DNA of 64,000 nucleotides, from contig JAIQEV010000011.1 of assembly GCA_020073585.1 (NCBI GenBank), positions 1 to 64,000 of the forward strand, in the 5' to 3' direction. Shown one piece after another: positions 46,808 to 48,932 of this stretch (position 1 is its first letter; the number at the start of each line of letters is the position of its first letter). The notes under the pieces are model-generated. The model was given only the letters and a program-made list of their open reading frames with translations. It had not been told where the DNA came from and searched no databases. The stretch comes from Terriglobia bacterium (GTDB lineage Bacteria > Acidobacteriota > Terriglobia > Acidiferrales > UBA7541). The translations under genes and the position numbers were made by a program.

Positions 46808-47776
46808 CTAGCCGCGCGGCGGGCGTTCCGCCTTGGGGGAGTTCTCCGCGGAAGCGAGCGGATAGCCGCGCTCGCGCCAGGCGCCGAGCCCGCCCAGCAG
46901 CGGGCGAATGCGCGCGATGCCTTGTCTCTTCAGGAGCAGCGCCACCCGGGCGCTCGTGGCTTCGTTGGGTCAAGTACAGTAGAGGATCACTTCGCGGTCG
47001 CGTGGCAGGCGCTCGTTCCGCTCCTGCAGTTCCTGCGCGTCCATGTGCAGCGCGCCGGGAATCGTTTCCGGAGCGGCGTCGAAATCCAGGGCGTGGCGCA
47101 GGTCCACGATCACCAGATCCTCGCCCGCCTCCAGCTTCTGCTTCAATTCCTCGGGCGTAATCCGCGCAATGCGCAGCTCGCGCAGGAAGCGCTGGCGGGC
47201 GATGAATTTCCAGCCGATGTAGCCGGCCAGTGCGCCGGCCAGCAAAACAAACAGGGAACCGCCCAGCGAGAGTGCGCCGCCGGCGATGCGCTCGAGCTCT
47301 CCGCTGAAGGCGAAGCCCAGCCCCAAAAAACTGCCGGCCCAGAGAAGCGCTCCCGCCGCGTCGAAGAGCAGAAAGCGCGCCAGGCGCATGCGGAAGATGC
47401 CCGCCAGCGGCGGAGCCACGGTGCTTAACCCCGGAAGGAATTTGGCCACCAGCAGGGAGCGCGCGCCGTGCCGGGCAAAAACGCCTTCGGTGCGGCGCAC
47501 GCAGGAATCGGGCTCGAACGAGATGCGGCAGAGCCACTGCAGGACGCGGTTCCCGCGGCGGCGGCCCAGCTCGTACCAGAGCATATCGGCGAGCAGCGCC
47601 GCGCAAACGGCGGTGAACAGCGAGACCGCCAGACTCAAGCGCCCCGCGCCGGCCAGCGCGCCCGCGGCCAGCAACAGCGGAATCGCCGGCAGAGGCAGGC
47701 CGAGCTGTTCCGCAAAGACCCAGGCGAAGAGAACCAGCGCTCCGTGTCGCAGTAGAAATTCGAGCGGGCCGTGCAT
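46808..47776 (-). CDS. DedA-rhodanese fusion with an in-frame UGA at an active-site Cys position
   Basis: The frame starts at 47776, has a TGA at 46972-46970 (codon 269) and continues in frame for 53 codons to a TAG at 46810-46808. Residues 1-195 are a DedA/SNARE-associated membrane domain (FAEQLGLPLPAIPLLLAAGA, then FLPGLSTVAPPLAG). Residues about 210-322 are a rhodanese domain; the text across the stop is ILYCT-(UGA)-PNEATSARVA, then RPLLGGLGAWRERGYP. Relatives read YCTCPNEA, so the UGA replaces the second Cys of the loop. Either selenocysteine is inserted, or a point mutation or sequencing error truncates the protein. It begins nine bases after the nitroreductase stop. Confidence 0.75.
46938..46954 (-). 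other. Hairpin downstream of the rhodanese UGA (possible bacterial SECIS)
   Basis: In the message AGCGCC-CGGGU-GGCGCU forms a 6-bp stem with a five-base loop containing GGGU. The loop begins 24 nt from the U of UGA, within the usual 16-37 nt for bacterial SECIS elements. Such hairpins are common in GC-rich coding DNA, so this is only suggestive. Confidence 0.3.
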
Positions 47777-47785
47777 GGGGAGAGA

Positions 47786-48403
47786 TTACGCTTTCTTCCC
47801 CCCGGCGGCGAGCGCCGCGCTGTTTCCCCACGTTCCGGACATTACGAATTCGGAAAGTGGCTTGCGGCTGCGCGGCTCGATCTCGCGCCGGCGCAGCTCT
47901 TCCGGCAGGGAAGCGGGGTCGCCGGGATAGCCGATGGCGATGGCCGCGACGGGCTCCCAGCCGTCCGGGATGCGGAATGTGGCGCGGGCCTTCTCGGCAT
48001 CGAAGCCCCCCATCTGGTGGGTGCACAGGCCCCGCGCGGTGGCTTCCAGGGCCAGGCTGGTGCTGGCGGCGCCCACGTCATGCAGGGCGTGACGGTTGGG
48101 CTTGCCGTTGTGGCGGAAACTGGTGCGCGCGACGGAGAGCGCGAGGACCGGCGCCGCCGCGGCCCAGGCCTTGTTCCATTCGATCAGGATCGCGAGCATG
48201 CGTTCGTATTCTTCCGGGTTCTCCTTGCTGGCCACCAGATAGACCCAGGGCTGGTCGTTGTAACAGGAGATCGCCCAGCGCGCCGCTTCGAACAGGCTGC
48301 CAAGCTCCGCGGCCGGGACGCGCTTGTCCGCGAAGGCCCGCGGGCTCCAGCGGCGCCGCAGCAGTTCGTGTATGGGGAAATCATTTGTTGCCGGATTTTC
48401 CAT
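47786..48403 (-). CDS. Nitroreductase-family protein
   Basis: 205 residues, FMN-dependent NAD(P)H oxidoreductase fold. FMN-binding features are RRRWSPRAFADKRV at the start, ARWAISCYNDQPW (a Ser/Asn stretch) and GLCTHQMGGFD. It may reduce nitro compounds or quinones. AAGGAG precedes the ATG. It sits between a MarR gene and the DedA-rhodanese gene on one strand. Confidence 0.92.
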   Translation of the reverse strand: MENPATNDFPIHELLRRRWSPRAFADKRVPAAELGSLFEAARWAISCYNDQPWVYLVASKENPEEYERMLAILIEWNKAWAAAAPVLALSVARTSFRHNGKPNRHALHDVGAASTSLALEATARGLCTHQMGGFDAEKARATFRIPDGWEPVAAIAIGYPGDPASLPEELRRREIEPRSRKPLSEFVMSGTWGNSAALAAGGKKA

Positions 48404-48470: not shown

Positions 48471-48932
48471 CTATTCGGGCGCGCGGGCGCGGACCTCGTC
48501 CAGCAGGTTGCCGAGCGTCTTGAGGCGGGCTTTCGAGAGATGCCGCAGTTGCCGCCGGTGCAGCTCGCGCATCGGCTGGTCCAGCCGCTGGAGAAGGTCC
48601 AGGCCTTGCGCCGTTATCCGGGTGGTGATCACGCGCCGGTCGTCTTTCCGGCGTTCCCGGGTGATGAGCCCCGTCTTTTCCAGGCGGTCGAGCAGGCGGG
48701 TCATGTCCGGATCGCGGGTGACCATGCGCCCGGCGATCTCCCGGCAGGAGAGGCCTTCGGGGCCGGCGCCGCGGAGAATGCGCAGAACGTTGTACTGGGC
48801 CGGGGATAGGGCGTGGGATTTCAGGAGCTGCTCGACGCCCTGCAGCAGCCAGTCCGCGGCGCGCTCGAGGCGGACGAAAATCTCTTCCTCGAAGGGCGGG
48901 AGGGGGTGGGGGGAACGGGAGCGAATCTTCAT
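48471..48932 (-). CDS. MarR-family transcriptional regulator
   Basis: 153 residues from the ATG at 48932; the next upstream ATG (48947) would lie before the predicted transcript start. Winged-helix features: LSPAQYNVLRILRGAGPEGLSCREIAGRM, then DPDMTRLLDRLEKTGLITRERRKDDRRV, the MarR wing. It probably represses the nitroreductase gene 67 bp downstream and itself, responding to an oxidant or aromatic ligand. Confidence 0.93.
   Translation of the reverse strand: MKIRSRSPHPLPPFEEEIFVRLERAADWLLQGVEQLLKSHALSPAQYNVLRILRGAGPEGLSCREIAGRMVTRDPDMTRLLDRLEKTGLITRERRKDDRRVITTRITAQGLDLLQRLDQPMRELHRRQLRHLSKARLKTLGNLLDEVRARAPE

Follow-up and report, generated by a model that had tools for sequence, protein, structure and literature searches.

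A DedA-rhodanese fusion gene with an in-frame UGA codon predicted to encode selenocysteine in a genome of the Acidobacteriota

The stretch of DNA analyzed here (the window, 64,000 nucleotides from a Terriglobia bacterium) carries a gene in which a VTT/DedA membrane domain is joined to a rhodanese domain and whose reading frame is interrupted by a single TGA. The gene is part of contig C29 of a 4.03-Mb genome in a 113-contig assembly, and a search of the gene surroundings for repeats returned nothing of note. The features of the locus, in the direction of transcription, are as follows.

48967-48939, minus strand: promoter-like site just upstream of the MarR gene (pattern scan only)
48471-48932, minus strand: MarR-family regulator gene (Pfam PF01047), start codon uncertain
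47786-48403, minus strand: nitroreductase-family gene (Pfam PF00881), 9 nt upstream of the fusion gene
46808-47776, minus strand: DedA-rhodanese fusion gene with UGA read as selenocysteine (predicted), 322 aa, TAG at 46808-46810
47315-47689, minus strand: VTT/DedA membrane domain (Pfam PF09335), residues 30-154
47528-47530, minus strand: codon of C83, an invariant Cys of the DedA domain
47501-47503, minus strand: codon of C92, an invariant Cys of the DedA domain
46871-47158, minus strand: rhodanese domain (Pfam PF00581), residues 207-302
46976-46978, minus strand: codon of C267, the residue that matches the catalytic Cys in an alignment with solved rhodaneses
46970-46972, minus strand: UGA codon 269, predicted selenocysteine, in C-T-U-P-N-E-A
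46938-46954, minus strand: predicted bacterial SECIS hairpin AGCGCC-CGGGU-GGCGCU (comparative evidence), loop at 46944-46948

A first-pass annotation of this DNA had described a TGA at codon 269 in an otherwise intact frame, and translation of 46808-47776 confirms it: the 322-residue frame holds this one in-frame TGA, in the context YCT-U-PNEA, and continues for 53 codons to the TAG at 46810-46808. If the TGA acted as a stop, as in the standard code, translation would end after YCT, within the active-site loop of the rhodanese domain. Both domains are recognized by Pfam well above their gathering cut-offs, VTT_dom at residues 30-154 (50.4 bits against 33.9) and Rhodanese at residues 207-302 (49.3 bits against 22.2).

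The state of codon 269 was followed across 125 gene entries, in which it is TGA in 62 and Cys in 63; Trp occurs in none of the genes inspected. Sixty of the TGA entries are distinct over 54 nt, and the 63 Cys entries count one gene (from genome G050) twice, as L120 and L172, so that 62 are distinct. The proposal that the UGA falls on the second Cys of YCTCPNEA in relatives thus holds, as the same codon is TGA or Cys in the aligned genes, and these genes do not present a picture of Cys throughout with decay of the gene in the window. For gene-level comparisons we used 96 distinct genes (41 TGA, 55 Cys), made up of 63 relatives from a scan of named genomes, whose seed peptides covered the Cys form as well, and the relatives of the window's own genome, minus seven duplicate loci and L074, which ends before the codon site. 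Named records account for ten of the 41 TGA genes; eight of these records are titled Acidobacteria, Terriglobia or Acidiferrales, one is NC10 (L029) and one Deltaproteobacteria (L031). TGA is also present in homologues of only 35-48% identity (L115-L118). The fusion family was found in 58 of 297 genomes drawn from the phylum; the best 30 matches of this draw, with the gene of the window excluded, have TGA in 21 and Cys in 8. Neither this ratio nor that of all entries is a frequency, because the scan was seeded and the draw is limited to these best matches. One TGA-type gene (L123/L072, on QHYJ01000087 of genome G030) is broken in one assembly, around residues 183-190, by a frameshift or a TAG, which may reflect either error or decay.

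The hairpin downstream of the UGA has six pairs, a 5-nt loop (CGGGU), a UGA-to-loop distance of 21 nt and a folding energy of -9.2 kcal/mol, and it starts 15 nt after the UGA, a spacing shared by the first 35 distinct TGA genes. The first-pass annotation had placed a hairpin with a GGGU loop 24 nt downstream, within bacterial SECIS range; the hairpin is confirmed and its measured spacing is close to that value. It agrees with the bacterial SECIS model as given in a passage of PMC13188914 (loop of 3-9 nt, stem of 4-16 bp, G in the first two loop positions, a distance of 16-37 nt to the UGA, MFE of -7.5 or lower). A scan with this model, which takes unbroken stems only and recovered one of the two selD genes of the genome, matched 38/41 TGA genes, 10/55 Cys genes and 38/820 control positions; when a G[G/U] loop was required as well, these counts became 38/41, 1/55 and 9/820. 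L116 and L118 are among the three TGA genes that fail the strict stem, and in both of them a G-C pair has become A-U, with both sides changed; the control for such changes is mixed, as 35 of 500 shuffles also attained the pairs in which both sides are changed. Seven further TGA genes that fail the strict-stem scan (L170, L176, L177, L179, L181, L182 and L184) have SAARVA, a CGUGU loop and a seemingly bulged stem, and this is a possible second SECIS shape.

The contrast between the two forms of the gene extends to each part of the hairpin. Across the entries, a loop G followed by G or U is found in 62/62 TGA against 6/63 Cys sequences, and the three inner pairs in 62/62 against 28/63. At least five of the six pairs can form in all 41 TGA genes and in 11 of the 55 Cys genes, where synonymous shuffles expect 0.22 and 0.10, respectively, and 95.6% of the cells in the stem are paired in TGA genes compared with 56.9% in Cys genes. 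Codon choice follows the same division, with GCC fixed in the TGA genes (39/39, against 22/53 in Cys genes), as are GTG (37/37 against 15/28) and GCG (39/39 against 24/55); the Ser codon is AGC or AGT in both groups (TGA 41/41, Cys 20/20) and is uninformative. Taken alone, the 54-nt stretch of the gene in the window folds no better than its dinucleotide shuffles (z +0.47), and the evidence for the hairpin is thus comparative. Genomes that were assembled separately share this TGA and hairpin, which makes the observation more than a matter of chance.

The machinery for selenocysteine (Sec) insertion, the absence of which from the genome would have counted against the selenoprotein reading, is present. 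Profile searches identified selA (555.5 bits, cut-off 267.9) and selB (359.7 bits, cut-off 242.25), and a tRNA-Sec was found at 66.4 bits (cut-off 47), with the anticodon TCA assigned by ARAGORN; a second tRNA match also passes the cut-off, at 48.1 bits, and corresponds to a tRNA-Ser. Two selD genes score above the cut-off, each with one in-frame TGA, in the contexts GFAG-U-ASK and KAAG-U-AAK. In both of these genes (L018 and L019) the TGA is located where the selD domain begins, and the first gene directly follows a frame with a TGA of its own. Just after selD, contig C56 has a 43-position selB-like match (C56:63577-63702, L007), possibly a second selB cut by the contig end; the full-length selB is on contig C108. 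Among related genomes, selA was matched in 55 of the 58 searched, 54 of these above the cut-off, a set of 56 different genomes at most, since the places seen in G001 and G030 appear again under G072 and G075. It was not found in three of the 58, all incomplete or draft assemblies, one of which (G025) has a TGA gene. Above-cut-off selB was present in 41 of the 44 searched genomes that have the fusion gene and was not found in the other three, again incomplete or draft assemblies. A strict rule, by which the TGA form accompanies the Sec machinery and the Cys form arises only after its loss, fails, as selA is also present in genomes with the Cys form (e.g., G003 and G031).

Selection on the gene was assessed among TGA genes at least 75% alike. 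Synonymous variation is strongly reduced within the hairpin (pS 0.118) compared with the regions upstream (0.611) and downstream (0.529), and at codons +13 to +38 past the UGA dN/dS is 0.135. In the single comparison of the gene in the window with L022, the part after the hairpin has 12.5 nonsynonymous differences over 57.5 sites and 10.5 synonymous over 20.5, and appears only loosely constrained. In an unrooted tree of 93 proteins, built with the site masked, the Sec/Cys site needs eight changes, seven of which are forced by well-supported branches. Three Cys forms (L023, L026 and L043) are nested among Sec forms of the window's own genus, and their genomes keep selA (G031, G003 and G001/G072). 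Although the tree is unrooted, we infer that the direction of change was from Sec to Cys. In the Cys-type L026 (3805-3858) the hairpin stem is kept and the loop G is gone, and this is likely a SECIS relic.

These data allow the readings of the UGA to be weighed against each other. We conclude that the gene encodes a selenoprotein with a predicted selenocysteine at position 269, at a probability of roughly 0.96; the first-pass annotation had offered this as a possibility, and it is now supported computationally by the recoding signature of a hairpin that fits the published SECIS model, by the recurrence and conservation of TGA or Cys at the codon and by the Sec machinery of the genome. Alternatively, the TGA might have arisen through faulty sequencing or assembly, or through a nonsense mutation that recently struck a gene on its way to decay; in favor of this, TGA is a single base change away from TGC or TGT, and the window is one contig of a 113-contig assembly. 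A base-call error or the decay of a single gene is rejected because the relatives share TGA or Cys at this codon, the same TGA recurring in 62 entries (60 distinct over the 54-nt stretch), and the sequence past the UGA is under purifying selection; we give this explanation next to no weight. It is also conceivable that the UGA is decoded as Trp or Cys by suppression, or that read-through gives two products, with no involvement of selenium. The inserted residue is not visible to a comparison of sequences, and some Sec machinery is able to insert Cys at UGA. Yet 63 entries have Cys at the corresponding residue and none of those inspected has Trp, and the hairpin signature and Sec machinery go with the TGA, which leaves such decoding highly improbable.

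The rhodanese domain places the predicted selenocysteine in its active site. A predicted structure (pLDDT 90.1, pTM 0.81) was obtained, and a structure search limited to residues 197-317 returned rhodaneses, with Z up to 17.7. In an alignment with solved rhodaneses, C267 occupies the position of their catalytic Cys and U269 lies two residues further along; C267 and the Cys or Sec at 269 are both invariant in all 68 aligned fusion proteins. The suggestion that Sec replaces a catalytic Cys is thus only partly borne out: the UGA is in the active-site loop, but since C267 aligns with the catalytic residue, U269 does not take its place and instead completes a C-x-U motif.

The membrane domain differs from the DedA proteins found outside such fusions. 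We compared 30 VTT loci from 15 genomes, comprising 5 fusions, 20 alignable unfused DedA proteins and 5 loci without a usable alignment at the Cys sites. C83 and C92 are invariant in 68/68 fusions and occur in 0/20 of the alignable unfused proteins. In YghB, Arg130 and Arg136 are tied to the binding of undecaprenyl phosphate (in a passage of PMC10127716); mapped by their six-residue spacing, they correspond to positions 112 and 118 of the fusion. Position 112 is Lys in all 68 fusions, and position 118 is S, A, G, N or T and never Arg (0/68), compared with Arg in 19 of the 20 alignable unfused proteins, the exception being a doubtful 18.9-bit alignment. On this mapping, the Arg pair of the COG0586 undecaprenyl-phosphate flippases is lacking from the fusions. 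The PGDSL motif with its Asp, present in the eight unfused DedA proteins shown, is absent from the eight fusions shown, and E23 is kept in 57 of 68 fusions. Clusters of Lys and Arg are found at residues 75-116 (seven) and 191-206 (five). By the positive-inside rule, which assigns positive charges to the cytosolic side, C83, C92 and the rhodanese domain would face the cytosol. A DedA domain without the flippase-linked Arg and with two invariant Cys suggests a thiol or persulfide redox role.

MarR and nitroreductase neighbors had been claimed in the first-pass annotation, and both (PF01047, PF00881) indeed lie upstream on the same strand, so that MarR, nitroreductase and fusion gene form a row. 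The nitroreductase gene ends 9 nt before the fusion start, and the two genes are likely on the same transcript; a terminator-like site (pattern match only) directly follows the fusion gene. Nitroreductase matches were found in the flanks of 30/41 TGA loci against 3/55 Cys loci, counted irrespective of order and strand, although the flanks are unequal (about 1.5 or 3 kb) and absent matches mean little. The first-pass annotation took an operon with these two genes to fit redox chemistry, a link that is hypothetical.

Our analysis suggests a model for the production and activity of this protein. The ribosome would read UGA 269 as selenocysteine, guided by the SECIS hairpin and the cell's own SelA, SelB, SelD and tRNA-Sec, to yield a rhodanese that is anchored in the membrane and has a C-x-U pair, C267 and U269, in its active-site loop. 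We tentatively propose, at somewhat less than even odds, that the rhodanese domain is cytosolic and acts as a persulfide/thiol redox enzyme, in which sulfane sulfur may pass from a donor to C267, with U269 either resolving the C267 persulfide or forming a selenenylsulfide with C267. The pair might then be reset by a cytosolic reductant or by the C83/C92 pair of the membrane domain. The missing Arg at 118, the C83/C92 pair and the cytosolic placement together lead us to propose, more speculatively, a thiol/selenol or persulfide relay: a selenium-dependent membrane redox device in which a DedA fold without the flippase Arg may exchange electrons or sulfane sulfur, through C83 and C92, with the C-x-U rhodanese of the same chain. 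As a complete scheme this must be considered quite unlikely.

Other functions can be envisaged. The DedA half may flip undecaprenyl phosphate in the ordinary way and the rhodanese half may serve as a sulfurtransferase in regulation or detoxification, so that Sec would only tune an accessory activity; the weak matches to NCBIfam flippase models (UptA, 44.6 bits against a cut-off of 250) and the retention of E23 in most fusions are consistent with this, while the absence of Arg at position 118 from every fusion and of the PGDSL Asp from those shown argues against it, and we regard it as rather unlikely. The fusion might otherwise move or process oxyanions of selenium or sulfur, with DedA serving uptake and the CxU rhodanese acting as carrier of the reduced Se or S. 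A DedA protein of Ralstonia metallidurans is tied to selenite uptake in a passage of a review (PMC11422209), as it is in the title of Ledgham et al. (2005). These selenite-linked DedA proteins, however, have not been shown to be fusions, and Cys forms of the fusion are common, so that selenium supply is no obvious common theme; we find this function improbable.

If the selenoprotein reading is correct, a widely shared membrane selenoprotein is added to the Acidobacteriota, for which a passage of a 2006 account gives three selenoprotein families and four selenoproteins (PMC1794560), and gene callers that stop at the TGA cut the protein short within the loop of its rhodanese domain. The reason for the fusion of rhodaneses to DedA proteins has been called unclear (in a passage of PMC10127716, which also mentions DedA-rhodanese fusions), and the Cys pair together with the lost Arg offers a testable answer. 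Since the Sec and Cys forms alternate in a single genus that has retained the Sec machinery, these genes form a natural set in which to ask what Sec buys at this site.

Rhodanese selenoproteins of the CxU type are already known, as are DedA-rhodanese fusions of the Cys type; a literature search, with supplements and subscription journals outside it, found no paper on the combination of selenoprotein, rhodanese and DedA. Cys-type fusions (PF09335 + PF00581) such as P. aeruginosa PA1209 have, as described in a passage of PMC12893004, the same domain order, with Cys where the protein studied here has Sec, and homologues with CTC at this place are present in our compared set. The CxU rhodaneses, named in passages of the sources as "rhodanese-like domain-containing protein form 3, CxU" (PMC13188914) and "COG0607 form 2, CxU" (PMC9312934), resemble our protein in the rhodanese domain and its C-x-U motif (C267-T-U269). 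Their model NF041203 (rhodanese_LYCAU), an equivalog of 126 positions, covers the rhodanese half only and matches all 68 aligned members of the fusion family at E<=1e-5; here the domain is instead fused to a DedA membrane domain. Our protein scores 86.7 bits, below the cut-off of 115, and is thus a relative and not a formal member, and the genome has no NF041203 match above this cut-off. Persulfide reductases and a persulfide dioxygenase with rhodanese domains (3ict, 3nta and 5ve3; Z of 15-16.2) have the same rhodanese fold, but they are soluble and have other partner domains, and a common fold does not show a common function. The TsoB rhodanese/DsbD fusion-like selenoprotein (NF045694; in a passage of PMC13188914) likewise pairs a selenium-containing rhodanese with a membrane redox domain; its membrane domain is a different one, its Sec pattern is UxxxxU, and our protein scores 16.0 bits against the NF045694 cut-off of 805. 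The relay proposed here would resemble DsbD but make use of a different membrane fold.
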